64,000 nt of DNA from Halorussus salinus (GCF_004765815.2 NZ_SBIS02000007.1:186001-250000); one strand, 5' to 3'. Positions 1-16,596 are shown, counted from the stretch's first letter. The notes: generated from the sequence alone by a model not told the origin. Program-made: numbers and translations.

Positions 1-85
1 GCGCAAGCGGGAATAGACTCCGGCACCTCTCCGAAACGGTTGGTCGTCGCTGAAGAACAGAAGTTAGCCAGTTGGAGGATAGAGA

Positions 86-829
86 TCACTTGGGGCGACA
101 AAACCACGGATAACCGCGCTCAGTCACTTCGTAGTCGAGTTGCTCGAAGAACGAACGAAGTTTTCCGTCACGTGTCTCGCCGTCGGAGATTTCGTGACGT
201 TCGAAGTAGATATTCGGTTCGTAGTTCTGAATGACCTGTTCGGCACCTCGTAGGACTTCGAGACCTAGACCTTCTACGTCGATTTTCAGATAGTCCGGTG
301 GTTCGATTTCACCGTCGGCAACGAGACCGTCGAGCGTCTCGACCGAGACGGTAGTGGTCCCGATTATCTCCTCGTCGCCGTACTTGGCGTTATACCTATT
401 GAACGAGCTTCGTCCCGACTGAGACGACATGTAGAAAGTCGACTCGTCGGAGGCGCTGGACAGGCCGAGATTCATCGGTTCGATTCGGTCTGGGCTTGCA
501 GAGGCCGCGACGTTTTTCCGGAATTTCTCGAACGTCTGGGGATTCGGTTCGAACGCGTAAACGCGACACCCCTTTTCGGCTAGCGGTAGAGAGTAATCGC
601 CTACGTTTGCACCGATGTCAAGGACTACGTCGCCCGCAGAAGCCTCCGCGAGTATCGTTTCGAGCATCGGTTCGGACCCCGGCGGTTCGAGATTGTAACT
701 CTTGTATCGGACCCCGTCGATTTCCTTTCCGAGTGGCCAAATCTCATACTCGTAGTTTGCCTCTTCGATTTTCCTCCCTATCGTTATCAGACTGTCTGGG
801 AGATTGGACAATAGCTGTCTACTGGTCAT
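86..829 (-). CDS. FkbM-family SAM-dependent methyltransferase
   Basis: The 247-residue protein matches the FkbM methyltransferase family, which transfers methyl groups from S-adenosylmethionine to sugars or small molecules. SAM motif I (VVLDIGANVGDYS) is at residues 68-80, the acidic strand FEPNP at 93-97, and the family signature DYLKIDVEGLGLEVLRGA at 179-196. It is the last gene of a five-gene minus-strand run that begins at 6209 and encodes glycosyltransferases and a Wzy-like protein, so methylation of a glycan is the likely job (inference). The substrate cannot be read from sequence. The 85 bases beyond its stop, up to the window edge, hold nothing callable. Confidence 0.88.
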   Translation of the reverse strand: MTSRQLLSNLPDSLITIGRKIEEANYEYEIWPLGKEIDGVRYKSYNLEPPGSEPMLETILAEASAGDVVLDIGANVGDYSLPLAEKGCRVYAFEPNPQTFEKFRKNVAASASPDRIEPMNLGLSSASDESTFYMSSQSGRSSFNRYNAKYGDEEIIGTTTVSVETLDGLVADGEIEPPDYLKIDVEGLGLEVLRGAEQVIQNYEPNIYFERHEISDGETRDGKLRSFFEQLDYEVTERGYPWFCRPK

Positions 830-955
830 TCGGTGTGAACCTCGTAGCGTGTAGTATAAAAATAGGGGTTAAGTCGATTGCGGTATCCCTACCCGTGAAA
901 TCACACCGACGCGACGAGCAACGCCGATACACGAAACTGTCGTCGTTCCGTATCG

Positions 956-2107
956 CTACTTTGTCAGTAATTCCTTATAGAGGGCTTCCGTGTCGTCGAG
1001 AAACCGTTCCTCGCTGAACCGAGTTTCCGCCCGTAGTCGGGCGTTTCGGCCGTATTGACGTCGGCGATCTGTCTCCGAAAGGAGTTCGTTGATAGCGTTC
1101 GCTAGTGCGGTCGAGTCCCGAGGAGGGACCGTCAGTCCGGTCTCACCGTCCTGACTCACCCACGGTACGCCGGACGGCAGGTCGGTGTTGACCACCGGCG
1201 TGCCATGAGCCATCGCCTCCAACTGGACGATGCCGAACGCTTCGCTCGGGACCGACGACGGGAGGACGAACACGTCGGCCCTGTTGTACAGGCGGTGGAG
1301 CTGTTCGTCGGTTACGTAGCCAAGGAACCGAACTCGCTCCTCAATACCAAGCGATCCGACATGGGCTTCGAGGGCCTCCCGCCGATCACCGTCGCCCGCT
1401 ATCAGAAGCGTAGCATCGACATCAACCATCGCCTCGACGAGATACTCTAATCCCTTGTAGTAGATGAGTCGCCCAGCGAACAGCAGGACCGGTTGCGAGT
1501 CATCCACCTCGGAGACAGCGGTCGAGTCGTCTTCGAAGCGATTTGCGTTGGAGCTGTCACTATCGAGGTCGGAAACGGGATACTCGTCGAGGTCCACGGC
1601 GAGGGGAATCACCTCGCACTTGTCCTCGTACTGTGGGAGAACCTGTGAGTGTTCAACCAGCGCGGGCGAGGTGGCGAGGATGCGGTCGGCGCGATCAAGG
1701 AAGCGTTCGAGAAACGGACGGTAAGCGCGGGCGATAGCCGCTTGTCGCACGATGTCGCTATGATAGGTCACGACGACAGTGACATCTGTCGGGGCAGTAG
1801 CGAGATGCGAAATCGCGGCGAGTGGGTGTGGAAGATGATAGTGAACCACATCGTGCGTACGAACGAGTCGTCGGATGTGGAGCGGGAGCGTCGGTGCGAG
1901 CGGTACCGAGAGAAGTTTACCGATACTGCCCACCCTATGAACCTGAACACTATTGACGCGGTCGCGTCTGCCGGTCCCCTGCGGGACGGCCGAGAGGACC
2001 GACACGTCGTGACCGCGATTAGCCAGTCCCTCCGAAAGCTGTTGGACCACCTGTTCTATTCCGCCGGTATGAGGAGGATAGAACTGACTCACTTGAAGTA
2101 CGTCCAT
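956..2107 (-). CDS. GT4-family glycosyltransferase
   Basis: A 383-residue GT-B fold glycosyltransferase of family GT4. The N-terminal acceptor domain opens with SQFYPPHTGGIEQVVQQLSE (residues 7-26), where the GGIE loop is typical. The nucleotide-sugar domain begins at LLFAGRLIYYKGLEYL (208-223), and the E-x7-E motif is E289/E297 in SEAFGIVQLEAMAHG. Residues about 178-205 form a Ser/Asp-rich insertion between the two domains. It probably adds a sugar to a lipid-linked glycan at the inner face of the membrane. The sugar is not predictable. It lies 84 bp downstream of the next glycosyltransferase in the same run. Confidence 0.9.
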   Translation of the reverse strand: MDVLQVSQFYPPHTGGIEQVVQQLSEGLANRGHDVSVLSAVPQGTGRRDRVNSVQVHRVGSIGKLLSVPLAPTLPLHIRRLVRTHDVVHYHLPHPLAAISHLATAPTDVTVVVTYHSDIVRQAAIARAYRPFLERFLDRADRILATSPALVEHSQVLPQYEDKCEVIPLAVDLDEYPVSDLDSDSSNANRFEDDSTAVSEVDDSQPVLLFAGRLIYYKGLEYLVEAMVDVDATLLIAGDGDRREALEAHVGSLGIEERVRFLGYVTDEQLHRLYNRADVFVLPSSVPSEAFGIVQLEAMAHGTPVVNTDLPSGVPWVSQDGETGLTVPPRDSTALANAINELLSETDRRRQYGRNARLRAETRFSEERFLDDTEALYKELLTK

Positions 2108-2191
2108 GTATTGGAGAACTGATAGCCACTGTTCGCCATTATATCTACCTTTTCCAATCTCAGAGCCGCTTCGGAGGCATCGTTTGTTGTG

Positions 2192-3388
2192 TTACCTTCT
2201 TGCGAGGTCATGAAGGTGGGCCTCCAAGTCATCGACGACCGAAGACCATGCGTACATCTCGACCATCTGAGCTCGGCCGCTGATAGCGAGTTCGCGCGAG
2301 TCCTCGGACCCAGAGAGCGCGTCAGTAACGTATTTAGCGAACATATCGGCGTCCTCTGCTACCCAGAGGTGCTTACCATGTTTGACGTTCACTCCTTCCG
2401 CACCGGTCGGCGTTGAGACGACGACCGACTCGCTAGCAAGTGCTTCGACGAGTTTGATCTTGACGCCGCCCCCTTCTCGAAGCGGCACCACTATAGTGTC
2501 GGCAGCATCGATGAACGGTTCGATCGCCGGGACGCGACCCGTCACGACGACGCCGGGTTGCTTGCCGAGACGACGGACAGTCTCGTTCGGTTCCTTGCCG
2601 ACGATGAGGAAGCGCACGTCCGGAACTACCGACCGGACCTTTGGAAATACCTCCTTAACGAACCACTCGACTGCATCCACGTTCGGTTCGTAGCGCATCG
2701 TTCCTGTAAAGACGACAGTTGGCACGTCGCTAGCGTACTTTTCCGGGAGGGACTCGGTCAAGTCGAACCGGTCTGCGGTCACACCTATGGGAGATACTGA
2801 CGTCCGGTCGGCAATCGTCGGGAATCGGTCGGCCATCTGGGCGCGTTCGTCGGTCGAAAGGAAAAGGTACGAGTCGAACAGACCGTCACCGAAAACAGTT
2901 CGTTCGTACTGTAACATTCGTGCCGACTCAACCGCGTAGGGGATGGCCCTCGGCGACGGGAACTTCGATCGTGCCATTCCGAGCAGGACCTTTGTCTCTA
3001 TATTATGAACAGAAAAGCACGTGGGTACGTCCAATTCTGTTAGGTATTTCGTCATGTTGGTGTGTTCGGCAACGACCACGTCCGCAGTATCTGTGAGTTC
3101 GTCGAGTTTCTCCTGGAGTTTCGGTGCGTATCGACTCGCCACAGGATATGGAAGCCGCGGGTTCCGGGCGTATAGTTTCATACCCCGTGGACGTGTCGCA
3201 TACGTGACCGACGAACAGAAATCTGTCATCTCGTCTGCTCGGTCGAGTTCCGACTCGTCGTCCACGACTGAGAGGACGTGAACGTCGTGTCCACGGTCAG
3301 CCAGTCGCTTAATGCGGTTGAACGTTACGACCCGTTCGCCCTGGTTTGGCGGGTACGGTGTACCCGGCGTAATCCACACTAGCTCCAT
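2192..3388 (-). CDS. GT4-like glycosyltransferase
   Basis: A 398-residue GT-B glycosyltransferase. The N-terminus (ITPGTPYPPNQGERVVTFN, residues 6-24) and the C-terminal donor-site segment VPLREGGGVKIKLVEALASE (301-320) resemble the sugar transferases found in exopolysaccharide/exosortase-linked loci. The second Rossmann domain starts near VVFTGTMRYEPNVDAVEWF (225-243). Its ATG at 3386-3388 lies inside the end of the upstream Wzy-like gene (10-base overlap), which indicates translational coupling. Donor and acceptor are unknown. Confidence 0.88.
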   Translation of the reverse strand: MELVWITPGTPYPPNQGERVVTFNRIKRLADRGHDVHVLSVVDDESELDRADEMTDFCSSVTYATRPRGMKLYARNPRLPYPVASRYAPKLQEKLDELTDTADVVVAEHTNMTKYLTELDVPTCFSVHNIETKVLLGMARSKFPSPRAIPYAVESARMLQYERTVFGDGLFDSYLFLSTDERAQMADRFPTIADRTSVSPIGVTADRFDLTESLPEKYASDVPTVVFTGTMRYEPNVDAVEWFVKEVFPKVRSVVPDVRFLIVGKEPNETVRRLGKQPGVVVTGRVPAIEPFIDAADTIVVPLREGGGVKIKLVEALASESVVVSTPTGAEGVNVKHGKHLWVAEDADMFAKYVTDALSGSEDSRELAISGRAQMVEMYAWSSVVDDLEAHLHDLARR

Positions 3389-4959
3389 GGTTTGGTGATT
3401 ACCCAGTTCGGAAGGTACTGTTTCGGAATAGGAACCGATCGAACCGAGTTAGGTGCGGCTACCGAAACTGCTGAGAAGCCTATGCCAACGTAGAACCAAA
3501 TGCGAAGGACGTAAAACTGGTCCACGAACATCGCGCTAATGGCGGCGAACACGACGATACTGAAGAACGTCTGTGTGATAGCGGCCATCGGCCCGTCACC
3601 GTTTTTGAGGAGGGTGTTGGCCGTATGGTTGAACTGTCGGAGGACGAATCCGAGCAACAGTACGAGGAGCAAAAGACCAACGAGACCTAGTTCTGCTAGC
3701 GTCCGAGAGTAATTGAACGTCCAACCATATGTGTGGCCTACGAAATCCACACCGCGCTCAGAATGGAACTGGTAGTTGTTCAATCCCACCCCTGTGAGGG
3801 GACGTTGAGACCAAACGTTGATTCCGGACAGGATGCGATCTGCCCGAACGTCGAGGCTAGAGTGTGTTACTGTCTCAACACCCTGTGACCCCGACGACCC
3901 CGACGACTCCGACGACCCCGACGATAGGGACGCGACGAAACCCATCAATGATGGAATCGTAATGTCCGGAAGTTCCGGGAGACTCACGGCAGGAAACGGT
4001 ATCCATGCAAGGTACGGCCCAAACAGCTTCGAGCCGAGTCCGATGATGCGTTTCAGAATGACGACAGTAATACGGCCGCCCGTAATGGCGAAATCGAACG
4101 CGAAAAAGGCCGCACTCGGAACCGCGAGCGTCGAACCGAGTCGAGCGTAGATGTCCGACCAGTTTACTGCCACTACTATAGTCGCCGCGACGAACAGCGA
4201 GACGTAGGCACCTAGCGAGTAGGCAATCACGAACGCAACTGTGACGACCGACAGAATAGCCAGATTCGTCCGGCGAGAGTCAAACAGCACGTCCTCAGAG
4301 ACGCCGTAGAGGAGTGGAACCGCGACTACGAAGAGTACGTCTGCAAGATACATCCCGAGCCACGATGGCTCCGGGAATAATGACGTGACGCGGTAGAACA
4401 CGCCACCAGTATAGTACGTTCCGCCGACCTGCTGGTCAGTCAACAGCATGGGGTTCGTCAATTGGAGGAAGGCGAACGGCAGTTGATACTCGCGAGCAAA
4501 GAACTGATAAATTGCGAACAGGGAAACGAACACCGCAACGACTGCCGTCGCCCGGAAGAAGACTTTCAGTTCTGCCCGGCCGAGGTTGAGATTATAAATT
4601 CCGAGGACGACCCCGAAGAACGCTCCGAGTCGAAGGACGCCGAATACGAACTCTCGTATTCGAGCGGCGTCGCCGGAGAGGAGCGGCCAGACCCCCGTCG
4701 CTGTCGCCCAACCGAGCCAGAGCGCGAGCAGGAGGATACTCGAAGACCAACGGAGAGTTCCGCGTTGGACGACGCTAACGCCGCCAGCGACGACGATAGC
4801 GAGTCCGACTAACCAACTGAATTTGATTCCGATACTTCCGACTCTCAACGGAACGAACCCCACGAGTGGGAAGCTTGCAACCATAGCGACTGTGAGGAGG
4901 GCAGGAAGATTACGGACTCTCCGGAACCGCCCGAAGAAGTCGTTGTCGTTGTTGGACAT
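3379..4959 (-). CDS. O-antigen ligase/polymerase (Wzy-like) membrane protein
   Basis: A 526-residue polytopic membrane protein with roughly ten or more hydrophobic segments. It has the large extracytoplasmic loop and the late R-x(n)-W-x(4)-P-x-G-x-G pattern (RILSGINVWSQRPLTGVG, residues 375-392) of the O-antigen ligase/Wzy family, which joins or polymerises lipid-linked glycans on the outside of the membrane. The loop carries a Ser/Gly low-complexity stretch at about 345-360. It sits between GT4 genes, 35 bp downstream of one and overlapping the next. Whether it ligates or polymerises is not decidable from sequence. Confidence 0.85.
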   Translation of the reverse strand: MSNNDNDFFGRFRRVRNLPALLTVAMVASFPLVGFVPLRVGSIGIKFSWLVGLAIVVAGGVSVVQRGTLRWSSSILLLALWLGWATATGVWPLLSGDAARIREFVFGVLRLGAFFGVVLGIYNLNLGRAELKVFFRATAVVAVFVSLFAIYQFFAREYQLPFAFLQLTNPMLLTDQQVGGTYYTGGVFYRVTSLFPEPSWLGMYLADVLFVVAVPLLYGVSEDVLFDSRRTNLAILSVVTVAFVIAYSLGAYVSLFVAATIVVAVNWSDIYARLGSTLAVPSAAFFAFDFAITGGRITVVILKRIIGLGSKLFGPYLAWIPFPAVSLPELPDITIPSLMGFVASLSSGSSESSGSSGSQGVETVTHSSLDVRADRILSGINVWSQRPLTGVGLNNYQFHSERGVDFVGHTYGWTFNYSRTLAELGLVGLLLLVLLLGFVLRQFNHTANTLLKNGDGPMAAITQTFFSIVVFAAISAMFVDQFYVLRIWFYVGIGFSAVSVAAPNSVRSVPIPKQYLPNWVITKPWS

Positions 4960-4994
4960 CGAAGATAGTTATCGAGTTAGGTATTGGGACCTAC

Positions 4995-6209
4995 TTAACA
5001 TTTTTCGTACGACTGTATAACCATTTCAGCGGCTCTCTCGTACGTTTGTCGGTTCGCATACGCTCTCATCGACTCCACGTCTGCCTGCGTGTCACCGCGT
5101 GCCACCTCGGCGAGTGACTCGGCTAGTGCAGTCGGCGACCCGGCCTCGAAAATTGTTCCGAAGCCACGCTCCGTGACTCTTCGACCGAGCGTCCCGAAGT
5201 TCGGAGCGACCAAGGGACGGAGCGCACCGCAGGCCTTCTGGAAGACACCGCTCGTCCGCTGAGCACCGAACTGCCTGCGGTAAGGCACGACGACTGCGTC
5301 GGCCGCCAGAAAGTAGTACGGAACGTCTTCCTGCGGGACGAACTCGATATCCGTCCAGAGACTAACCTGTGGAGGCAGTTCGACCGCGGTCAAGTCGGAT
5401 TTATCCATGTCGTCCGGAGGCCCGGCGATGACCATCTGGAAGGCCGGACCGTCGTATCGACGAAGTGCTTCGAGTAGCAATTCGATTCCCTTGTCGTCTC
5501 GAAGTTGACCGAAGTAGAGCGCAATCGGTTCGTCGTCCGGCAGGCCGAGCCGTGATCGGGCGTCCAGTCGAGACGAATCCCACTCGAACCACGGCTCGAG
5601 TGGGTCGGGTATCTCCGAGATCGGCACGTCGAACCCGAATGTCTCCACGAACCGCTTCGCCTCTGGGGAGTGAACGAGAACGCTGTCCAACCGACCAGTT
5701 CGCAGACAACCGTACAGTCCGACGGTCCGGGCCACCAGCGAGGGAACGCGCTCGATGGCCCACGACGGAAGGCGTCGGAAGGCTTCGGCGTGACAATCAC
5801 CGAGAATCGGTACGCCAAGAAGCGACCGAAACGGGGCTGTGAGGTGAGCATTCCGGAAGAATGCGCCGTTAATCTCGCCAACGACGTCGATTCCCTCGTG
5901 TCGCTCGCTCCGATAGATGGCGTCTGTCACGTCGTCAATTTGGAGAAAATAAAGTACGTCAGCACCGCTTCGCGTGGCGAACTCGGCGGCCTCTTCGACT
6001 ATCTCGACCGAGTCGGCGTGTTCGGTGACGGCGGTCTCCTCGGCGAGAAACGACGTCTCAACGTCCTCGAAGAACTCACGGTGACGTTCCGTCCGCTTGA
6101 CACCGAGAAATGAGACCGAGATGCCGAGTTCGTTTAGTTCGGCCGCCATCCGACTCGCGTATTCGAGATGGTGGCCCGATGCATATTGGTCGAACAGGAC
6201 AACTTCCAT
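4995..6209 (-). CDS. GT4-like glycosyltransferase
   Basis: A 404-residue GT-B glycosyltransferase and the first gene of the minus-strand run. The N-terminus VVLFDQYASGHHLEYASRM (3-21) is an unusual acceptor-domain loop (SGHHLEY). The donor domain starts at IALYFGQLRDDKGIELLLEA (about 229-248), followed by FVPQEDVPYYFLAADAVVVP and a RTSGVFQKACGALRPLVAPN segment typical of GT4 relatives. The ATG at 6207-6209 faces the divergent nucleotide-sugar dehydrogenase at 6372, leaving a 162-bp promoter region for both. The sugar specificity is not predictable. Confidence 0.86.
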   Translation of the reverse strand: MEVVLFDQYASGHHLEYASRMAAELNELGISVSFLGVKRTERHREFFEDVETSFLAEETAVTEHADSVEIVEEAAEFATRSGADVLYFLQIDDVTDAIYRSERHEGIDVVGEINGAFFRNAHLTAPFRSLLGVPILGDCHAEAFRRLPSWAIERVPSLVARTVGLYGCLRTGRLDSVLVHSPEAKRFVETFGFDVPISEIPDPLEPWFEWDSSRLDARSRLGLPDDEPIALYFGQLRDDKGIELLLEALRRYDGPAFQMVIAGPPDDMDKSDLTAVELPPQVSLWTDIEFVPQEDVPYYFLAADAVVVPYRRQFGAQRTSGVFQKACGALRPLVAPNFGTLGRRVTERGFGTIFEAGSPTALAESLAEVARGDTQADVESMRAYANRQTYERAAEMVIQSYEKC

Positions 6210-6330
6210 TGGTTGCTACCAGCCCCGCAGCCGATGTTGATTCTTTCGATAGTCGAACAGCAGCGGTAGGTCTCTACGACCGCGATACGAGCATCATCCG
6301 GTTTGTCGGGGGGACCGACCTGTAGTTACT

Positions 6331-6350
6331 AATGCGAAAACTCTAAACCC
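6331..6350 (+). promoter_or_regulatory. probable promoter of the nucleotide-sugar dehydrogenase gene
   Basis: An A-rich stretch (GCGAAAACTCTAAAC) is centred about 28 bases before the ATG at 6372. That is the spacing expected for a haloarchaeal TATA box of a leaderless transcript, and it supports 6372 rather than 6351 as the start. Assignment is by pattern only. Confidence 0.4.
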
Positions 6351-6371
6351 ATGACTTCAAGTGAGTATCGT

Positions 6372-7649
6372 ATGGATATCGCAATCATCGGTGGGGCGGG
6401 CCACGTCGGACTCCCCATGAGTCTCGTTCTGGGAGACGCTGGACACGACGTGACACTCGTGGACACCGACGAGGAGAAACTTGAAGCGATTTTAGACGCC
6501 GAGATGCCGTTCTCCGAACCCGGTGCGAAGGAACTCCTCGCCGAGCAATTGGCTACTGACGGGTTCGACGCGACCACCGATATCGACGGTCTGGATTGCG
6601 ACGCCTACGTCGTCGTCGTCGGGACGCCCATCGATGAACACAATAATCCGCAAATGGACAATCTACTGGACATCATCCGGAAGCTACGATCTCAGATCGG
6701 AGACGGGGAACTCGTCGTCCTCCGCTCGACCGTCTACCCCGGAACGACCGACATCGTTCGGAGTGAACTGGAGAAGGCCGGACACGAAGTCGGTGAAGAC
6801 GTGTACTTGTCGTTCGCCCCCGAGCGCATCGCCCAGCATAATGCGCTCGAAGAAATTATCGGACTTCCGCAACTCATCGGTGTCTTCGAAGACGAGAGTT
6901 ACGTCCGGACGCGCGCACTATTCGAGAGTTTCCTCGAAGCAGAATGTCCACGACTCACGCCCACCGAGGCCGAGCTAGGAAAACTCTTTACGAATATGTG
7001 GCGGTACCTAACCTTCGCGGCCGCGAACGAGTTCTACCTCATCACCGAGTCGTTTGCGACGAACCACGACGTGAACGTCCATCGAATCCTTGACAAGACC
7101 GCTCGTAACTATCCCCGATTCGATGTGCCCTCGCCCGGTGCGAACGTCGGTGGCCCCTGCCTGACGAAAGACGGCTGGTTCCTCGTCGACAACATCCCGT
7201 ACAACGAACTGGTGACTGCGGCGTTCCAGATCAACGAGGGCATGCCAGCGCAGATAGTGAACAGCATGCTGGAAAAGCACGCAGAACCCGACAAGGTGAC
7301 GATTCTCGGGATGACATTCAAGCCGAACTCGGACGACACTCGGAACTCGGTCGCGTTCAAACTCGAAAAGCAGTTACAGTACAAGGGTATCAACGACATT
7401 GTGAGAATCGAACCGAACAAGGAAGGCTTCGACGACTGGGACGAGGTCAAAGGGAGCGATTGGGTCATCCTGATGACGCCTCACGACGAGTTCGCCGACC
7501 TTCAGGAGGTGCATCGACAGGTGGATAACGACGAGTGTACGTACTGCGATATCTGGGGATTCTGGGAGAAGATGCGATACGACTCCGAGAACGGCTTTAT
7601 GAACGCATTAGAGTTCGATTTCGACGAAGCACAAACGAAGGTGCTATGA
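6372..7649 (+). CDS. UDP-sugar 6-dehydrogenase (UDP-glucose/GDP-mannose/ManNAc dehydrogenase family)
   Basis: An NAD-dependent enzyme that oxidises the C6 hydroxyl of a nucleotide sugar to a carboxylate, giving a uronic acid donor. The Rossmann motif IIGGAGHVGLP is at residues 5-15 (425-residue numbering), the PER motif is in SFAPERIAQ, and the catalytic cysteine is in GGPCLTKDGW (Cys263). The C-terminal UDP-binding domain starts at KVTILGMTFKPNSDDTRNS. An in-frame ATG at 6351 would add seven residues that do not belong to the fold. The stop overlaps the next gene by four bases (ATGA). The overall style is closest to WecC-type UDP-ManNAc dehydrogenases, but the substrate is inferred only to be a nucleotide hexose. 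Confidence 0.9.
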   Translation: MDIAIIGGAGHVGLPMSLVLGDAGHDVTLVDTDEEKLEAILDAEMPFSEPGAKELLAEQLATDGFDATTDIDGLDCDAYVVVVGTPIDEHNNPQMDNLLDIIRKLRSQIGDGELVVLRSTVYPGTTDIVRSELEKAGHEVGEDVYLSFAPERIAQHNALEEIIGLPQLIGVFEDESYVRTRALFESFLEAECPRLTPTEAELGKLFTNMWRYLTFAAANEFYLITESFATNHDVNVHRILDKTARNYPRFDVPSPGANVGGPCLTKDGWFLVDNIPYNELVTAAFQINEGMPAQIVNSMLEKHAEPDKVTILGMTFKPNSDDTRNSVAFKLEKQLQYKGINDIVRIEPNKEGFDDWDEVKGSDWVILMTPHDEFADLQEVHRQVDNDECTYCDIWGFWEKMRYDSENGFMNALEFDFDEAQTKVL

Positions 7650-8626
7650 TGAAAATCACAGTTACCGGAAGTGAAGGATCGCTGATGCAATGGACTATCA
7701 AGCATCTCATCGAGGACGGACACGAAGTCCTCGGCGTAGACAACTACAACCGATACGATGATTACGACCACACCCGCGTTGTCGACCAAGACGAATATGA
7801 GTTCCACAAAGCCGATCTGACCGACCCGGAGGCGGCACACGAAGTCGTCGAGGACGCCGACTACGTCATCAACGCCGCGGCACTCATCTACGGCGTAAAG
7901 GGGTTCCACGAGTACCCAGCCGACATCCTCTCGAATGACGTGACCATCCATCGGAACATTCTAGAAGCGGCCGTGGAGGCCGACGTCGAGCGCGTAGTGT
8001 ACATCTCGTCCTCGATGGTCTACGAACAGGACGACCCACCCCACCACGAAGACGACGTATGGCAGAACAGAATCCCATCGACCGACTACGGTCTCTCGAA
8101 AGTCGTCGGGGAACGATACAGTCGTGCGTTCGAGAAGCAGTACGATTTGGACTACACCATCTGGCGGCCATTCAACATCATCACGCCGTACGAGCGTGCC
8201 GAGGACGAACCGGGCATGAGTCACGTGTTCGCCGACTTCATCCAGAAGATACTGATAGACGAGCAGAACCCGATGGAAATCTTCGGTGATGGCGAGCAGG
8301 TGCGGTGTTTCACGTGGATAGACGAAGTTGCCGAAGCCATCGCGACGCAATCGTTCGTAGACGTGACGCAAAACGAGGTGTACAACCTTGCCAACCCCGA
8401 ACAGATTACGATGAAGGAACTCGCCCGCCTCATTTTCGAGAAGGGAAGAGAGCGAGGCATCGTGGATAATGGCCATCTTGAGTTCGACCACGTGCCGATC
8501 TACGACGACGACGTGAAGAAGCGAGTGCCGTCGGTCGAGAAGGCCGAGGATCACTTCGGCTGGGCACCCAAAACGAAAGTCGAGGACTCCCTCGAACGCT
8601 GTATCGACAACACCATCGGTGAGTAA
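7646..8626 (+). CDS. NAD-dependent sugar epimerase/dehydratase (extended SDR)
   Basis: A 326-residue extended short-chain dehydrogenase that would epimerise or dehydrate a nucleotide sugar. It has the NxAA strand (VINAAALIYG, 74-83), the serine track VVYISSSMVYEQ (117-128) and the catalytic Tyr148-xxx-Lys152 in STDYGLSKVVGERY. The NAD-binding loop reads TGSEGSLMQ instead of TGxxGxxG, so the third glycine is missing. The ATG at 7646 overlaps the stop of the dehydrogenase gene (ATGA), which gives translational coupling and excludes the longer upstream reading. It probably acts on the same sugar as the dehydrogenase or on its product. Confidence 0.88.
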   Translation: MMKITVTGSEGSLMQWTIKHLIEDGHEVLGVDNYNRYDDYDHTRVVDQDEYEFHKADLTDPEAAHEVVEDADYVINAAALIYGVKGFHEYPADILSNDVTIHRNILEAAVEADVERVVYISSSMVYEQDDPPHHEDDVWQNRIPSTDYGLSKVVGERYSRAFEKQYDLDYTIWRPFNIITPYERAEDEPGMSHVFADFIQKILIDEQNPMEIFGDGEQVRCFTWIDEVAEAIATQSFVDVTQNEVYNLANPEQITMKELARLIFEKGRERGIVDNGHLEFDHVPIYDDDVKKRVPSVEKAEDHFGWAPKTKVEDSLERCIDNTIGE

Positions 8627-8775
8627 CGACAGCACAGAGGGTCGCCTCAAGGGAAAGGTCACCGCTGTCTAAACGAAGCGTGATTAGATACTCGTAGACA
8701 AACAGTTCTTCGTCGTATGGAGCGACTGAAGACTTATCACACTGAGAGCGGGTCACCATTTTGTACCCAAGGAGC

Positions 8776-8790
8776 GTAAAATTTTTGCCC
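8776..8790 (+). promoter_or_regulatory. probable promoter of the 8813 methyltransferase gene
   Basis: GTAAAATTTTT lies 25-35 bases before the ATG at 8813 in otherwise GC-richer DNA, in the right place for a haloarchaeal TATA box. The 186-bp gap from 8627 to 8812 shows no other recognisable element. Confidence 0.4.
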
Positions 8791-8812
8791 TACTCCACAA
8801 GCGTTTCCCACA

Positions 8813-9607
8813 ATGGCACGGACAGCATTCCACCACGCTTACTACGTCTACAAGCGGACGGGAATAAGAGAGTTATTTCGCCAAGCCCTGATCGAAGCAG
8901 AAAACTTCTTCGGGAGACACCTATCTCTGTCGCATCAGAAACTCTACCAGCGGTCAGTGAACGAACTACACCGCCGAATGGAGAGCGAAGACGACATCAA
9001 AGACGCAATCGAGACGGCGTTTAGCTACAGAGGATACGGAGTATTTCGCTCTATCGAACCGTTTCAACAGTCCGGTGAACTCCGGGAACTGCTTGATAGC
9101 TTACAGCGAGAGGACATCGACTCGGTCCTCGAAATCGGCACCGCCCGTGGTGGCTCGTTATATCTCTGGTGTCGGACCCTAGAACAGTCCAATACGTTCC
9201 TTAGTGTCGATTTGCCCGGTGGTGAGTTCGGCGGAGGATACTCGGAGCACCGTATCGACCTTTTTCGTGAATTTGTGGACGACGCGAACATGCAGTTCAT
9301 CCGACGGAACTCTCACGACCCGGAAACAGTACGAATGGTCGAAGATGCGACCCCCGAAAACGGTATCGACCTCTTGTTTATCGACGGTGACCACACGTAC
9401 GAAGGAGTGAAAAAAGACTTCTATAGCTATTCGGCGCTTCTTGACGACAATGGTATCGTCGTCTTACACGATATTTTGGGGAATCCACACGACCCGGACG
9501 TAGAGGTAGACCAGTTCTGGCAGGAATTAAGGCAAGAATACAAAACCGAAGAAATCGTCGAATCTCCCGAACAGGACTGGGGCGGACTTGGAGTGGTCTA
9601 TGTTTGA
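8813..9607 (+). CDS. class I SAM-dependent methyltransferase (CmcI/Methyltransf_24-like)
   Basis: A 264-residue protein with SAM motif I SVLEIGTARGGSLYLW (104-119), the following acidic strand FLSVDLPGG (129-137), and IDLLFIDGDHTYEGVKKDF (185-203), a signature shared with cephalosporin-hydroxylase-like and rhamnosyl O-methyltransferase-like enzymes. The first 90 residues are basic and helical and could contact the membrane. It is preceded by its own promoter and overlaps the next gene by eight bases. Methylation of a sugar hydroxyl in the glycan is the likely role; the substrate is unknown. Confidence 0.85.
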   Translation: MARTAFHHAYYVYKRTGIRELFRQALIEAENFFGRHLSLSHQKLYQRSVNELHRRMESEDDIKDAIETAFSYRGYGVFRSIEPFQQSGELRELLDSLQREDIDSVLEIGTARGGSLYLWCRTLEQSNTFLSVDLPGGEFGGGYSEHRIDLFREFVDDANMQFIRRNSHDPETVRMVEDATPENGIDLLFIDGDHTYEGVKKDFYSYSALLDDNGIVVLHDILGNPHDPDVEVDQFWQELRQEYKTEEIVESPEQDWGGLGVVYV

Positions 9608-10517
9608 AGATTCAGTCGATTCCAATAAGCGGCGAGTAATCGACACGGTATCGGGACTGATCCGTTCGATGCGTCCGCCCCAGTGGTACAAACAGGGAGT
9701 GATGTTGATTGGTATCGTCTTTGCAAAACAACTCTCGGACCCCGTTGCTTGGAGGGGCCTCGTCCTAGGCATCATCTCGATGACAATTTTGGCGAGTGCG
9801 ACGTACATTTTCAACGATATCTTTGACCGAAAAGGAGACCGCGCTCATCCCCAGAAGTGCCATCGTCCGATAGCGAGCGGCCAAGTCAGTATCGCGCTTG
9901 CCGCCAGCTTCGCTCTCGTTTTAGTATCGATATCGCTACTAATCGCGTCGCTGTTAGATACAGTGTTTCTAGCAATAATAATTGTCTATCTCGTCCAAAA
10001 TTGGCTCTACTCGTTTGCTCTGAAGGAGATAGCTTTCGTTGATGTTCTCGTAGTCGCCTTCGGGTTTGTGCTTCGCGCAGTTGCTGGTGTCGTCGTTATC
10101 GACCAAGTCGTAAGCCCGTGGTTGCTAGTCTGTACGTTCTTGCTCGCGCTGGTTCTCGCATTCGGAAAACGTCGTCATGAGATTCACGCGATGGATGAAC
10201 CGAGTGAAACGCGGAAAGTACTCTCAGTGTATACGAAAGACGAGTTAGACCAACTTCTCGTAATGGTCACATCGTCGCTATTGCTATCCTACTCTGTCTA
10301 CGTCGTGCTACATGCGGATCCAGTACTAATGCTATCGCTTCCAATGGCCTTCTTTGGGGGGTTCCGGTATCACCACCTCGTTCGAACGACGGCAATCGGT
10401 AGTCAACCAAAATATCTTGTTACAGACCGACAATCTGTGTTGAATCTCGTTCTCTGGACTTCTAGCGTCCTTCTAGCGCTGTACACCCCGATTGGCGAAC
10501 ACTACGTATTTATGTAG
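9600..10517 (+). CDS. UbiA-family prenyltransferase, decaprenyl-phosphate phosphoribosyltransferase-like
   Basis: A 305-residue membrane prenyltransferase with about eight to nine hydrophobic segments. The first Mg-pyrophosphate motif reads NDIFDRKGDRAHPQKCHRPI (72-91), with the D-R-x-H-P-x-K-x-x-R-P-I block that marks decaprenyl-phosphate phosphoribosyltransferases (mycobacterial Rv3806c type) rather than quinone or lipid UbiA enzymes. A second block, YSFALKEIAFVDVLVVAFGF then LRAVAG (137-163), and FGKRRHE (188-194) also match that subgroup. Such enzymes join PRPP to a polyprenyl phosphate, the first step to polyprenyl-phospho-pentose donors. The ATG at 9600 is preferred over a TTG at 9588. 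Next to it is a PHP phosphoesterase. Confidence 0.82.
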   Translation: MFEDSVDSNKRRVIDTVSGLIRSMRPPQWYKQGVMLIGIVFAKQLSDPVAWRGLVLGIISMTILASATYIFNDIFDRKGDRAHPQKCHRPIASGQVSIALAASFALVLVSISLLIASLLDTVFLAIIIVYLVQNWLYSFALKEIAFVDVLVVAFGFVLRAVAGVVVIDQVVSPWLLVCTFLLALVLAFGKRRHEIHAMDEPSETRKVLSVYTKDELDQLLVMVTSSLLLSYSVYVVLHADPVLMLSLPMAFFGGFRYHHLVRTTAIGSQPKYLVTDRQSVLNLVLWTSSVLLALYTPIGEHYVFM

Positions 10518-10549
10518 ACTACTACAATGAATCTGCTGTCTGCATTCAG

Positions 10550-11197
10550 ATGAAGCAATACGACCTCCATATACACACGAACGCGTCGCCCTGCTCGGGA
10601 GCGACGCCAGCGAGCATCGTCGAAGCCGCAGTTGAAAGAAACCTCGACGGAATCGCAATTACGGACCACGACACCCAAACTAACGTCGAAGCAGTGCAAC
10701 GTATCGCACCGGACCACCTGATGGTCATCCCTGGTGTCGAAGTAACGACGACAGAGGGACACTTGCTTGCGCTATACGTGGACGAGGCGCCGCCCCAAGC
10801 CGAACCACAGACCGTCGTCGACTTCGTTCATGAACTCGGTGGTGTCGCAGTGCTGGCCCACCCCTTCGACGAGTTGCGACAAACGTACGACAGCGATTTG
10901 ACGACGTTGGCCGCTGCCGTCGATGGTATCGAAGTTCGTAATTCGCGATGTCTCTTCGAGCGGTACAATCGGCGCGCAGAATCTTTCGCAACGACCCACG
11001 ACTTGACAGCCATCGCGGGTAGCGATGCGCACTTTCCGTGGGAAATCGGACGTGCGACGACAGAGTGTAAGACATCACTCCGGGCCGCACTGAAAAATGA
11101 TTCGTGCACCGTTCGAGGCCGTGGAAGGTATCTCACCGGTCACGTAGCCACGAAGGTGGAGCAATTTCGCTCGTATCGATTCAACCGTCTCTCCTAA
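10550..11197 (+). CDS. PHP-domain metal-dependent phosphoesterase
   Basis: A 215-residue PHP-family hydrolase with the full metal-site set: DLHIHT (His7, His9), TDHD (Asp39, His40), PGVEV (Glu64), His71, AHP (His104) and GSDAHFPWEIG (Asp159, His161). Family members cleave phosphoester bonds using three metals. It begins 32 bp after the DPPR-synthase-like gene. Removal of the 5-phosphate from a polyprenyl-phospho-ribose-phosphate is an attractive but untested role. An eight-codon reading frame (10527-10553) ends across the ATG (ATGA). Confidence 0.85.
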   Translation: MKQYDLHIHTNASPCSGATPASIVEAAVERNLDGIAITDHDTQTNVEAVQRIAPDHLMVIPGVEVTTTEGHLLALYVDEAPPQAEPQTVVDFVHELGGVAVLAHPFDELRQTYDSDLTTLAAAVDGIEVRNSRCLFERYNRRAESFATTHDLTAIAGSDAHFPWEIGRATTECKTSLRAALKNDSCTVRGRGRYLTGHVATKVEQFRSYRFNRLS

Positions 11198-11209
11198 AGA
11201 AGAATCAAA

Positions 11210-12928
11210 TTAAGTAGGTCGCCGACAAATCTGATACGAAGACCGGACAAACAGAGAGTAGTCACCGAACTGGGTTAGTTTTGTGTAATTTCCAAGTTCC
11301 AGTACCTGTTGACCGGAGGGGAAATAGTACGATCTTGAGAGGACGACAACAATATCCGACCGAGACGCCACAACGTCGCCTTTCGAGCGGACCGTGAAAA
11401 GACGCTCTGCATCTTCCGTGTACGTATTCTGCAACTGATGTCTCATCCCGTATGGTCCCCCGACTGTTGCCGATTCGTTGCACGCTATCTCCGAACCGAC
11501 GTAGTCTATCGCATCTCCTGTACCGCTGGTGCCGTAATAGTACCGCGTGCTGTACGAGGCAGTCGCCTGCATAGCGACGAGTCCGACGTTCGACCCGAGA
11601 ACCGCTACGAGCAGAATCGACGTTACTATCGCTCGCTTCGTAGTCGAATCGTGCTGGTTTAGTAGTACCGTCGACGCACCCCAAACGATTGCGATAGGGA
11701 CTAAGAGACCGCTGTAGATGAGCAATCGTCGTCCGGGAGCGGACCAAGCACCGGCAATAGGGTCAGCGAGAGCGAAAATTACACCGGCGACGACGAGGCT
11801 GCCACCAGCAACTTGAGCGCTCCATCGTTTCGTCGGTCGTATCTTTACTCGCCCCATTCCGACTCCGGCGGCGATCGTCAGTAGTGGCATTACGCGACCC
11901 ATGTATTTGGTGAAGTCGTAAGTGGACCCTTTCAGAAGAACTCCATACTCGACAATAGTCAACAGCGAAAAGAGAACAAACGGAAGGAGAACAGCTTGCT
12001 CGGTCTGTAGTACTTGAGTGAAGTGAGTATTTCGTACTCCTCGTAGGTCTTCGAGTCGTGGGAAGATAACGACGAGACACAGCAAGAGGAGAAACGGAGA
12101 AATCCATAGTATCTCGTAGTAGATGATGTTTAGAATCTTCAACGGGAGTGCGTGAAGTTCTGGATACGTAACCCGAGAGACAAATTGCGCATCGGTGACG
12201 AAGGGTGTGAGAAAACGTGTTCCAGTGAATAGAGAGAGGCCGCCCCACGTGATGACGAACGCAACGAAGCCGCCTACCACCGAGAAAGCAAAGCGTGTCA
12301 TCTCCGACCATCGACGCGTGATTCCAAAGTAACAACAGAACGTCAATAGGAGTGGCGGTAGCGGACCAAACTTATTCCAAGAAAGTACGTAGACGAACGA
12401 CGCTGTAATTGCGTACTTGACGATCGGAGTCGTCTCGTCCAGTTCGTAAGCGTACAGGAACCAGAAAAAGAACGCCGAAAGGAGGAAAGTAAAGACGTTT
12501 TCCATGTCGATAAGGACGCCAGTCTGGACGGCGAGAGGCGAGAGAATATAGAGAAGAGAACTGAGAGCGGGAGCAACGGATTTTGGGAACGTCTCGGCTA
12601 TCTCTACGAGATTTTCCCGGACAATTAATTTAGTAGAAAAATATACCGGAAATATTGTTCCGAGGGTAAACAGGAATGTACTCGCCCTCGTAATCACTGG
12701 CTCTGTCGACCCAATTGCAGCGCTCACGGCGTAAACAAAAAAAGTGTATAGTGGCGGATGTATTCCCCTCGGGTATCCATTCGTATCGAGGTATCGAACG
12801 TTGACGAAAAACCAACCCTCGTCTTCTATAAGCGGGTCCGAAAGTTCGGGGAAAGCTAAAACAGTTGAGAGGAAGACGAGTGGAATCAGAACGGCGATGT
12901 CAGCTTTCTCTAACAATCCATTGCGCAC
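11210..12928 (-). CDS. GT-C membrane glycosyltransferase (ArnT/PMT-like, GT39 or GT83 type)
   Basis: A 572-residue protein with about a dozen transmembrane segments. The first extracytoplasmic loop has the acidic catalytic motif IEDEGWFFVN (about 34-43), followed by GIHPPLYTFFVYAVSA, as in polyprenyl-phosphate-sugar-dependent GT-C enzymes such as ArnT. It would transfer a sugar from a lipid monophosphate donor to an acceptor outside the membrane. It is convergent with the PHP gene (12 bp between stops) and near the UbiA-like gene, which could make its donor. A soluble C-terminal tail of about 100 residues follows the last membrane segment. Confidence 0.8.
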   Translation of the reverse strand: MRNGLLEKADIAVLIPLVFLSTVLAFPELSDPLIEDEGWFFVNVRYLDTNGYPRGIHPPLYTFFVYAVSAAIGSTEPVITRASTFLFTLGTIFPVYFSTKLIVRENLVEIAETFPKSVAPALSSLLYILSPLAVQTGVLIDMENVFTFLLSAFFFWFLYAYELDETTPIVKYAITASFVYVLSWNKFGPLPPLLLTFCCYFGITRRWSEMTRFAFSVVGGFVAFVITWGGLSLFTGTRFLTPFVTDAQFVSRVTYPELHALPLKILNIIYYEILWISPFLLLLCLVVIFPRLEDLRGVRNTHFTQVLQTEQAVLLPFVLFSLLTIVEYGVLLKGSTYDFTKYMGRVMPLLTIAAGVGMGRVKIRPTKRWSAQVAGGSLVVAGVIFALADPIAGAWSAPGRRLLIYSGLLVPIAIVWGASTVLLNQHDSTTKRAIVTSILLVAVLGSNVGLVAMQATASYSTRYYYGTSGTGDAIDYVGSEIACNESATVGGPYGMRHQLQNTYTEDAERLFTVRSKGDVVASRSDIVVVLSRSYYFPSGQQVLELGNYTKLTQFGDYSLFVRSSYQICRRPT

Positions 12929-13115
12929 GGTAAGAGGTTCAGACGTAGTTTACATGAGCGCTTCGATTTTCCGTAATTCGGGTGAATCAGTCAACTACTG
13001 TCAGACTTAATTAAATAATTTTCGTTCTAGTTCACAGATACCTCCGAATCCGGAGTAGGCTCCACGGTCGTCGATTCGAATTTCGGGACGGTATCCGCAG
13101 CGACGTGTCTGGACC

Positions 13116-14687
13116 TCAGCGATAGCCCAAGTCCCTGAGTCGTTCTTCGACACCCTCCGTCACGTTGTCAGAATGAACTTTGGAAGTATACCGGTCGTCA
13201 CTAACGAACTGTTGGTTGCCGTTGAGTTGTGAGAGAAGTTCCCGATTCATTTGTTCTGGAACGGGAGTTCCGGCGAGCGACAACACGACTGCCGCGATAG
13301 ACGTACAATCTGCAGTGAATTGTGTCGTCTTGACAGCATCTCCGGCGATGACAGCAATACCTTCCGGAGTATGGTCTGCAAAGCGATCCCGTGGCGTATG
13401 GAACCACGACTCGTCGAAGTCACCGTAGCACATGTACTGCCAATCGGCGGGTTCGACGAGAAGATCAGGTGCCGCCTCGGCGTTGCTTCCCGAGTATATC
13501 TCTCGGCCCCGATGGACCGCTGTGACTATCTCCTCGCCGGTCTCGGGATGGCAGAGTTCCTCTAGTCGGTCGGCGATTTCGGTCAGCGTTGCGTCGCGCT
13601 CGTCGGGTGTCACCATGCCATCGGGGTAGCGGTCGGTCGAATTGAGGTATATCTTGCCCATCGAATCGTACGCGAACGCGGTCGTGTTCTGCCAATCGAT
13701 GGTCTCTTTCAGTTTCTGTCTTCCTTCACCGGCGGCGTCACGCACATCGTCCAACAGCGAATCGGGGGCGAGACGTTTCACTCGCTCTTTCGCCGAGTGC
13801 GGGAGTGCCGCACCGGCTCGCCAACAGGCTTCGAGGACGATGTCTGCGACCGTCTCGAATGCGGTTTCGTTCACCTGCTTGCGTTCGAGGTATCCGAGGT
13901 TCTCAAGTAGTTCGTTCAAGTGGATTTCGCCGGTTATCTCTCCGGCACCGTGGTCCGAGAGCAGGACGACGTTCCGGTCGTTACCGACCGAGTCGAGGAG
14001 TTTCCCGAGCACACCGTCGAAGTGTTCGTAAGACTTCTTTACCGCGTTCTCGCCGTCTATTTCGGTGTTCCAGAGGTAGTGCTGAATCCAATCGATGCCC
14101 ATGAAGACGGACCAGAGCAAATCCGGTTCGTAGCGTTCCAGAAAGTCTATTGTTGCCTGACACTGAGCGTCAGTTATCCGGCGGACTTCCTCGTAGTACT
14201 TCTTTCGGTCGTCCGCGGGTTTTCGGTCCGGTTTCACTTTGAAATCGCTGTCTCGCAGTCGCTCCTGTACGTCCGAGGGATAGGCACGGACACCGTCGTC
14301 GGTACCCGGAAAACCCGACACGAAGAAGCCGTCTACTTTCGGCGGGGGCGATACGATAGGATAGTTCATTATTCCGACAGAACCGTCGTGTGCGTCGATG
14401 ACGTCCCAGACTGCCGGTCGAGAGACGGACCCGTATTCGACGGGTGAAACCTCGTACGTGTCCGGGTTCTGTTCACGGAACCCATAGATACCGTGTTCGC
14501 CAGGGGAGACGCCGGTCGCAATCGAGGTCCAAGCTAACGGTGTCATAGGCGGCATCGTCGAAATCAGCGTCCCTCGCGCACCCCGGTCGAGAAGTCGTTC
14601 GAAGTTCGGGAGACGCCCATCTTCGAGCAGAGGGTCGAGGATATCCCACGTCGCGGCGTCTAATCCGATTACGAGCGTCTTAGTCAT
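13116..14687 (-). CDS. alkaline phosphatase/nucleotide pyrophosphatase superfamily enzyme
   Basis: A 523-residue member of the type I phosphodiesterase/nucleotide pyrophosphatase branch of the AlkP superfamily. The first metal Asp is in LVIGLDAATWD (Asp10), the nucleophile Thr region is MTPLAWTSIATG (48-59), metal ligands are in GIDWIQH (Asp199, His203) and in LLSDHGAG (Asp245, His246), and a late HTPRDRFADHTPEG carries the last histidine. The ATG at 14685-14687 begins the conserved fold; 17 extra upstream codons are unlikely. There is no signal peptide, so it probably acts in the cytoplasm. It lies between the flippase and the GT-C gene, and relatives are common in haloarchaeal glycan loci with no known substrate. 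Confidence 0.8.
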   Translation of the reverse strand: MTKTLVIGLDAATWDILDPLLEDGRLPNFERLLDRGARGTLISTMPPMTPLAWTSIATGVSPGEHGIYGFREQNPDTYEVSPVEYGSVSRPAVWDVIDAHDGSVGIMNYPIVSPPPKVDGFFVSGFPGTDDGVRAYPSDVQERLRDSDFKVKPDRKPADDRKKYYEEVRRITDAQCQATIDFLERYEPDLLWSVFMGIDWIQHYLWNTEIDGENAVKKSYEHFDGVLGKLLDSVGNDRNVVLLSDHGAGEITGEIHLNELLENLGYLERKQVNETAFETVADIVLEACWRAGAALPHSAKERVKRLAPDSLLDDVRDAAGEGRQKLKETIDWQNTTAFAYDSMGKIYLNSTDRYPDGMVTPDERDATLTEIADRLEELCHPETGEEIVTAVHRGREIYSGSNAEAAPDLLVEPADWQYMCYGDFDESWFHTPRDRFADHTPEGIAVIAGDAVKTTQFTADCTSIAAVVLSLAGTPVPEQMNRELLSQLNGNQQFVSDDRYTSKVHSDNVTEGVEERLRDLGYR

Positions 14688-14772
14688 AGGTAGTCGAAAG
14701 AAATGGCGTGAGTAAAGTGCTTCCATCTCCCAAGTCACGCGAAACTGGAATGCCTTCGCTACGGATAGTCGG

Positions 14773-16311
14773 TTACAGCTTCGAGAAACCGTCTACGCCG
14801 AACAGTATCGTTTCCACGACCGGATACCCCACCTTCGTATCGATTCGTCGGGCAATTCGAGCGTCTCGCTCGGTAAACGCACCGAGGATTCGAAGCGAAG
14901 CGACGTAAACCGCCACGACGACAATCGGTAGCGTAGTCGCTGCTATCGTAGTCTGCGTAATAGTTCGAGCGAACAGTTCCCCGAACGCCAGCACCGGTAC
15001 TCCCGCACCGAGTACTCGCAGAAAGTCCCAACTGTATGGGTGGAGGCCGCGAAGATAGTTCAACTCTAAGACGCCCAATACACTCGTGACCGTTAGTGCG
15101 GTAGCCGTACCGATACCTGCTCCTAGAATCCCCAGTTCCGGAACCAACAGGACGTCGAGTACCGTGTTCAGGGTAATCAGGATTATCGTGTTCAGCAGAG
15201 TCAATCGGGTGTATCCCAGTCCTTCGAGCATCATTCCCTCGGGACCGAGCATCGAGTTGATGAAGTACCCCATCGAGAGGGCGACGACCACGAGACCTGC
15301 GGTGGCGTACTCTGGCGTGAAAAAGAGGGCCAGATACGTAGTCGGTGCGACGGTGAATGTAATCGCAACGGGAAGCGTGAGCATCGTAATCCACCGAGTC
15401 GCAACCGTATACTGTTTCGAGAGGACGGAGTCATTGTCTTTGTTCTCTGCGACTAGTGGTTTGAAGACCGGCGTAACGGCTTTGAGAACGATGAGAAGGT
15501 TTATTGAGAGGAAGAAAGCGACGCGATAGTAGCCGACGTCCGAAGAATCCAGCAGATAGCCGATGATGAAGTAATCGACTTGACCGACGATGGAGTATAT
15601 GAGGCCCGCGAACATGAGCGGAAACGAGTACGAGAGAAGTTTCCAACGGGACGTCTCCCTCGTCTGTGCGGTCCAGATGTCGTTCACATAGCGTCGGAAC
15701 AACAGCACGCCCGCACCGACGGCAAATAGCGTTCCGAGAAGGTAGCCAGTCACCAAGCCGACGATTCCGGTCCCGACCGAAAGCAGAACCCCGACGACGG
15801 AAACCCGGACAAGCGGGTCAGCGAAGTTCTTTACGAGGACCCTGAGTTCCATCCGCTTCACGCTATTGAACGTCGCGAGGAGGACGTTCTTCCCGGTCTG
15901 GATTGGAACTAGTAGGGCCAGTATCGGTAACGAGTGTTCCAACGACGGATCGTCGAAAATACGCCCGACGTCTCCGGAACTGACGAATAGCAGTACCGTG
16001 AAGACCAGGGAACTGCTCCCGGCGAAGCGGGTCACGTGGACGATGACAGCCTTCGCTTGACCGACCTCTCCATCGTCGAGGTGTTGGGGGACGAAGTAAT
16101 CTATCGCACGATGGAGGTTTAACGAGGCGAGCCCCTGAACGAACATGACGATGGAGAGACTGAGAGTGAACGTCCCGTAGACCGACGGCGAGGCCAGTCG
16201 CGTGACCAGTACGACAAAGAGGAAGCCTAATCCGCGACCGACGACATCGCCGACGAGCGTTATACTCCCCTGCTTGGCGACGATAGAGAGACTGCTCTCG
16301 TCGTCCGTCAT
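14773..16311 (-). CDS. Wzx-like polysaccharide flippase
   Basis: A 512-residue protein of the MATE-related polysaccharide flippase family with about 12-14 hydrophobic segments. The N-terminus IVAKQGSITLVGDVVGRGLG followed by VTRLASPSVYGTFTL is the typical opening of the family. It would move a lipid-linked oligosaccharide across the cytoplasmic membrane before the Wzy-like enzyme (3379-4959) acts. The ATG at 16309-16311 is preferred over a TTG at 16344. It is the first of three minus-strand genes (flippase, AlkP-type enzyme, GT-C). Confidence 0.86.
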   Translation of the reverse strand: MTDDESSLSIVAKQGSITLVGDVVGRGLGFLFVVLVTRLASPSVYGTFTLSLSIVMFVQGLASLNLHRAIDYFVPQHLDDGEVGQAKAVIVHVTRFAGSSSLVFTVLLFVSSGDVGRIFDDPSLEHSLPILALLVPIQTGKNVLLATFNSVKRMELRVLVKNFADPLVRVSVVGVLLSVGTGIVGLVTGYLLGTLFAVGAGVLLFRRYVNDIWTAQTRETSRWKLLSYSFPLMFAGLIYSIVGQVDYFIIGYLLDSSDVGYYRVAFFLSINLLIVLKAVTPVFKPLVAENKDNDSVLSKQYTVATRWITMLTLPVAITFTVAPTTYLALFFTPEYATAGLVVVALSMGYFINSMLGPEGMMLEGLGYTRLTLLNTIILITLNTVLDVLLVPELGILGAGIGTATALTVTSVLGVLELNYLRGLHPYSWDFLRVLGAGVPVLAFGELFARTITQTTIAATTLPIVVVAVYVASLRILGAFTERDARIARRIDTKVGYPVVETILFGVDGFSKL

Positions 16312-16596
16312 CGGTCTATGGAGCGTCGGTCCCGCTGAGATCAACTGTCACGCCGTCTCGTTCGAGGGGGAGACTGTCTGCGGCAGACCGTACGAACGTC
16401 GCTATCGTCGGCGGGGGAGAGAGATCGGAGACACGAGGCGAGTTCGGAGCAAGGATACGCATTAACGTCGTTTCCGAACTTACGATTATAACTATTCCGA
16501 AGTTCCGGAACGCGGGGGCTCGTGTCTCTCAAAGTCTAGCCTCGCCCAACTCGCGTCGGCGAGACTACCTCACTCCGACCGGGCCCTGGAACGACC
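16312..16596. promoter_or_regulatory. intergenic boundary with clustered TTCCGRA palindromic motifs
   Basis: This 285-bp gap separates the AT-richer glycan block from the GC-rich chromosome. TTTCCGAACT (16471-16480), ATTCCGAAG (16494-16502) and the perfect palindrome GTTCCGGAAC (16502-16511) cluster around an AT-rich core (GATTATAACTA). It may be the upstream control region of the flippase operon. No open frame here looks coding. Confidence 0.35.

Follow-up and report, generated by a model that had tools for sequence, protein, structure and literature searches.

The pathway from PRPP to lipid-linked pentofuranoses appears to have been described so far only in bacteria, and the closest counterpart of the archaeal genes considered here is the three-component system of C. 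youngae O1/O2 (ORF12-15; PMC11127046). It combines a PRPP-dependent UbiA synthase with a dedicated phosphatase formed by an HAD domain, an optional single SDR epimerase, a MATE flippase, and a GT-C enzyme of family GT136. C. youngae O1, which has no SDR, produces ribofuranose, while O2, which carries one, produces xylofuranose; archaeal systems are outside the scope of that study (PMC11127046).

Two other systems are related more distantly. In the mycobacterial decaprenyl-phospho-arabinose pathway (Rv3806c, Rv3807c, and DprE1/DprE2) the UbiA enzyme belongs to the same clade as the archaeal protein and shares its PRPP-site residues; however, the archaeal units possess no PAP2 partner, DprE1 is absent, and in place of the DprE1/DprE2 pair most of them carry an SDR epimerase, which is lacking in Halorussus salinus. 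The Haloferax AglD-AglR-AglS branch for DolP-mannose (PMC3871713) resembles the proposed pathway in that a GT-C enzyme attaches a lipid-linked single sugar extracellularly, while the donor here would come from PRPP via UbiA and a phosphatase and not from an AglD-type dolichol-phosphate glycosyltransferase.

The window, i.e., the whole stretch of 64,000 nucleotides of Halorussus salinus DNA that was analysed, contains a UbiA family gene followed by a PHP family gene (Table 1). This pair is predicted, with a probability of roughly 0.7, to supply a lipid-linked pentofuranose donor, in this organism probably ribose, to a GT-C enzyme in an AglB-type glycan locus. The initial annotation took the mycobacterial route as the model for these genes, but the three-component system is the better match, and the unit can be regarded as its archaeal variant. 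It is a variant and not a member, because PHP occupies the position of the HAD family phosphoribose phosphatase, so that the second step appears to be carried out by a different phosphatase class. The archaeal system further differs from that of C. youngae (PMC11127046) in its common flippase candidate (an LPG_synthase_TM protein instead of MATE), in its candidate GT-C enzymes (AglS-like or GT39-like where assigned, as against GT136), and in its archaeal lipid carrier. In this comparison the epimerase-less Halorussus salinus corresponds to the O1 ribose case, and the units with a companion SDR, termed SDR-R, correspond to the O2 xylofuranose case.

Table 1: Features of the glycan locus in the Halorussus salinus window (positions counted from its first nucleotide).
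Feature	Position	Strand	Basis
Nucleotide-sugar dehydrogenase	6351..7649	+	TIGR03026
Extended SDR, nucleotide-sugar epimerase-like	7646..8626	+	24-31% identity to SDR-R of other units, hence not SDR-R
Methyltransferase (PF13578 / RMNT_CmcI-like)	8813..9607	+	Pfam; stop overlaps UbiA start
UbiA family polyprenyl-phosphate phosphoribosyltransferase (PPPRS/DPPRS type)	9600..10517	+	PF01040, NF008977, 8j8j match, PRPP-site residues, Rv3806c clade
PHP family metallophosphoesterase, proposed phosphoribose 5'-phosphatase	10550..11197	+	PF02811/PF13263, NF038032 above cut-off, operon position
GT-C-like multi-pass membrane protein, candidate pentosyltransferase	11210..12928	-	hhalign to GT39/PMT_2 profile, ~9 TM by hydropathy, DE + HPPLY loop
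Type I phosphodiesterase / nucleotide pyrophosphatase family protein	13116..14738	-	relatives near 4 other units
MOP-type polysaccharide flippase, candidate lipid-linked-sugar transporter	14773..16344	-	PF13440/PF01943

The UbiA Protein and Its PRPP Site

The ATG of the UbiA gene at 9600 overlaps the stop codon of the methyltransferase gene (ATGTTTGA), and therefore co-translation of the two is probable; the UbiA stop codon ends at 10517. The protein matches PF01040 in Pfam at E 7.5e-26, and its top solved-structure match in phmmer is Rv3806c of M. tuberculosis (8j8j, E 3e-26), other UbiA structures being far behind. The decaprenyl-phosphate phosphoribosyltransferase signature reported in the initial annotation is indeed present, with NDIFDRKGDRAHPQKCHRPIA, LRAVAG, and FGKRR. 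Against the NCBIfam model for these enzymes (NF008977) the protein scores 225 bits, 9 bits below the cut-off of 234, which is a naming threshold and no biological feature in itself. Since several haloarchaeal orthologues at 52-53% identity are already named decaprenyl-phosphate phosphoribosyltransferase by NCBI, the first enzyme taken by itself is no novelty.

The PRPP-site residues of Rv3806c were taken from its published PRPP-bound structure (PMC10994848). The window protein is identical to Rv3806c at all nine PRPP/Mg site residues (R22, K28, Y70, N73, D77, K87, R90, Y138, and K143), eight of which are invariant in 47/47 haloarchaeal orthologues, K143 being kept in 46 of the 47. Rv3806c Q135 is replaced by Asn, which is also found in several bacterial relatives.

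Conservation of the UbiA-PHP Pair

The survey covered 391 Halobacteria genomes, and tblastn was used for the final tallies because greedy ORF calling passed over some PHP genes beneath longer ORFs. A UbiA orthologue is present in 46 of these genomes, belonging to 19 of 86 genera, and was not found in eight other searched genomes of the genus Halorussus; according to this distribution its function is accessory. The PHP orthologue lies directly downstream on the same strand in 47 of the 48 UbiA copies, with gaps of 15-142 bp (32 bp in the window), and 1.2 kb off in the remaining copy. Such pairing is far beyond chance, and the pair is a true unit. Even the divergent UbiA proteins (40-42% identity) have PHP nearby.

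Outside Halobacteria, UbiA and PHP precede an LPG_synthase_TM gene at four further loci of the phylum Halobacteriota, on the methanogen side. A DUF362 (PF04015) gene is found within the unit at four methanogen-side loci, L173, L175, L176, and L177, which have no close SDR-R nearby, and it might encode an unrecognised sugar-modifying or redox partner. Two units seem to be in decay: at L132 (genome G066) PHP and the LPG_synthase_TM gene are kept and UbiA is gone, and at L093, the second copy in genome G169, SDR-R is interrupted by stop codons. L024, a DPANN locus where a UbiA-like gene and a PHP gene occur, was excluded, as the UbiA ORF match spans 74 residues and its N-terminal part is without the R22/K28 context.

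Partner Genes and the Probable Sugar

The commonest haloarchaeal layout consists of a divergent SDR-R gene, UbiA, PHP, and the gene for the LPG_synthase_TM (“flippase-like”) protein, which is found in 47 of 49 units. SDR-R is present in 44 of the 46 UbiA-positive genomes, in two of them on a separate contig, and all 345 UbiA-negative genomes lack it. Shared ancestry inflates the raw Fisher p of 3e-56; at the genus level the association is 17/19 versus 0/67 (p 4e-16). In bacteria SDR-R adjoins UbiA in Planctomycetota (52-56% identity) and in Streptomyces and Nonomuraea (about 41%). The protein has an extended basic-hydrophobic C-terminal tail that is found across domains and would be compatible with action at the membrane. 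GT-C genes of either the AglS type (PF15971) or the PMT_2 type are located near 22 of the 49 units, with AglS-like PF15971 proteins in 18. A cluster near nodS/nodU on the symbiosis plasmid of Sinorhizobium fredii NGR234 (L160), with a similar one at L161, comprises an SDR-R-like epimerase, an SMR transporter, a GMC oxidoreductase, a large protein, a second SDR, and UbiA, and has the appearance of a full set of genes for a lipid-linked pentose.

In the Halorussus salinus genome SDR-R was not found, and a search of its own PF03706 loci with the LPG_synthase_TM protein of other units gave no match at E 1e-4, so a close orthologue is absent. Only one other UbiA-positive genome, G329, is without both partners; there an AglS-like GT-C gene is directly upstream of UbiA. 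The initial annotation saw no DprE-like genes and considered that the product could stay ribose, and the genome agrees with this view: DprE1 (ALO domain, PF04030) was not found in it, which rules out DprE-type epimerisation, and PF04030 is also absent from 42 of the 44 unit-bearing genomes searched. Because SDR-R, the LPG_synthase_TM orthologue, and DprE1 are all lacking, as compared with the C. youngae O1 case, ribose is the likeliest donor sugar in this organism.

The same UbiA-PHP chemistry could also end in an epimerised pentose here (arabino- or xylofuranose), provided that the lipid-linked sugar were a substrate of the SDR encoded in the window or of a different SDR in this genome. The extended SDR is encoded two genes upstream of UbiA, several GalE-like SDRs with at most 36% identity to SDR-R occur in the genome, one of them 12 kb upstream, and ORF13 of C. 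youngae demonstrates that a single SDR can be enough (PMC11127046). Nevertheless, the low identity of the window SDR to SDR-R proteins (24-31%) and its position beside a nucleotide-sugar dehydrogenase suggest a nucleotide-sugar role, which together with the absence of PF04030 makes such epimerisation rather unlikely, and ribose is retained as the preferred product.

The PHP Protein and the Phosphatase Position

The initial annotation credited the PHP protein with all metal ligands, and H7, H9, D39, H40, E64, H104, D159, and H161 are indeed present in the window protein. Its AlphaFold model has a pLDDT of 93, and the Foldseek matches are solved PHP phosphoesterases, including 7ug9 and 2anu.

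In bacteria the position next to UbiA is taken by other phosphatase families. UbiA adjoins PAP2 at the bacterial loci L150, L153, and L154; PAP2 occupies the slot in Tsukamurella and Rhodococcus, with a divergent PAP2 in Marivivens, and in Lactococcus (L152) HAD-IB and then GtrA are found there. At one archaeal locus (L178) the order is UbiA, HAD fused in frame with a GtrA-like segment (assigned by eye), SDR-R with 52% identity to the haloarchaeal SDR-R, and a PMT_2 type GT-C gene. The HAD enzyme of the bacterial pentofuranose pathway is proven to strip the 5'-phosphate (PMC11127046), and since HAD sits in the same slot at L178, PHP appears to replace it. By this analogy PHP is probably the phosphatase of the unit, and the early suggestion that it stands in for the mycobacterial phosphatase gains from the finding that it is conserved and position-specific where bacteria carry PAP2 or HAD.

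A different role of PHP would mean that UbiA forms the phosphoribosyl lipid, a general phosphatase removes the 5'-phosphate, and PHP acts elsewhere, on another phosphate or on a nucleotide. The structure matches of the PHP fold do include RNases and nucleotide phosphatases, and among the 49 PHPs of haloarchaeal units the first metal-motif His (H7) is kept only in the window protein (residues 3-9, window 10556-10576), the other 48 having Gln, so that the activity of most members of the family is not to be assumed; the four methanogen-side PHPs carry His at this position like the window protein. Against this role, the operon linkage is near-perfect and is kept at the methanogen-side loci, and the HAD family, with its proven phosphoribose phosphatase, takes the PHP position at L178. 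A role elsewhere is thus improbable, and removal of the 5'-phosphate by PHP is preferred.

Phylogenetic Placement of UbiA

In the tree the phosphoribosyltransferase group, including Rv3806c, is separated from the other UbiA rows at 97/99, and the window protein falls within it, as the initial annotation anticipated; the outgroup branches are long, and therefore this placement rests on the residues too. Haloarchaeal UbiA proteins form a single clade (100/99) within the group, and the archaeal PHP-linked clade with the methanogen-side proteins included is supported at 100/98. K28 is missing from all five UbiA paralogues encoded by the Halorussus salinus genome, which do not share the PRPP residue set as a whole. 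Judged by its sequence, the window UbiA is a member of the Rv3806c/PPPRS clade and not a lipid or quinone UbiA enzyme. A true prenyltransferase of archaeal lipid, quinone, or heme synthesis with an incidental PHP neighbour, as membership of the UbiA superfamily and the several such enzymes of archaea might suggest, is highly improbable, and the lipid/quinone role was ruled out, given the grouping with Rv3806c on those long branches, K28 with the K/R cluster, the five UbiA paralogues already in the genome, and a patchy distribution (46/391) unlike that of an essential lipid enzyme.

The GT-C-Like Gene and the Glycan Locus

The GT-C-like gene is convergent to PHP, as described initially, and its product has no Pfam match and no PDB sequence match. 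Compared with the GT39/PMT_2 profile of neighbouring units it reached an hhalign probability of 78% in a partial match over the catalytic-loop region, and an AlphaFold model built from two sequences was set aside (pLDDT 36). The gene was found in 2 of the 391 Halobacteria genomes, the second of which is without the UbiA-PHP pair, so its supposed standing as a conserved partner of the pair was rejected. In this organism it is a candidate user of the pentose donor. Of the donor module proposed initially, the UbiA-PHP core stands and gains in strength, the GT-C link is not supported, and the usual partners, SDR epimerase and LPG_synthase_TM protein, are missing here.

The MOP family flippase gene is located 3.6 kb from PHP. 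The GC content of window positions 1-16000 is 52-58% against about 63-70% beyond, and this lower value suggests an acquired surface-glycan island; the low-GC region holds glycosyltransferases, a Wzy-like protein, and the MOP flippase. Directly upstream of the window (L164 14756-19998) an oligosaccharyltransferase of the AglB type and a sugar transferase of bacterial type (sugar-phosphate transferase) are encoded, and for this reason the glycan may be protein-linked.

Proposed Pathway and Its Meaning

From the observed family membership, residue and operon conservation, co-occurrence, and phosphatase swapping we infer the catalytic steps, flippase, carrier, acceptor, and sugar as follows. UbiA would transfer phosphoribose from PRPP onto polyprenyl (dolichyl) phosphate to give polyprenyl-P-ribose-5-P, and PHP would take off the 5'-phosphate to yield polyprenyl-P-ribofuranose. 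In most haloarchaea the companion SDR probably epimerises the sugar and the LPG_synthase_TM protein probably flips the donor, after which a GT-C enzyme, either AglS-like or GT39-like, would join the pentose to the surface glycan. In Halorussus salinus, where both partners are missing, the donor probably remains ribose, may be flipped by the MOP-type transporter, and would serve as substrate for a GT-C enzyme, perhaps the GT-C-like protein of the window, in the AglB-type glycan locus.

For the phylum Halobacteriota, with haloarchaea and methanogen-side classes, the evidence leans slightly towards a pentofuranose-lipid pathway of its own, where PHP would be a new class of phosphoribose-lipid phosphatase, the LPG_synthase_TM protein would flip the donor, and SDR-R, one conserved SDR that also occurs in Planctomycetota and Actinomycetota, would epimerise the sugar without DprE1/DprE2. 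In the open-access literature no report of pentofuranose in a haloarchaeal glycan was found, nor of the UbiA-PHP unit, the phosphatase swap, or the SDR-R co-occurrence. If the proposed pathway is true, PRPP-derived lipid-linked pentofuranoses would be extended to Archaea, the pathway would gain a further class of phosphatase, new to it, and an epimerase made up of a single enzyme, and ribo-, xylo-, or arabinofuranose would be predicted in archaeal surface glycans. The presence of SDR-R and the flippase-like protein in 44 genomes and their absence from two offer a direct test of the role of each part.
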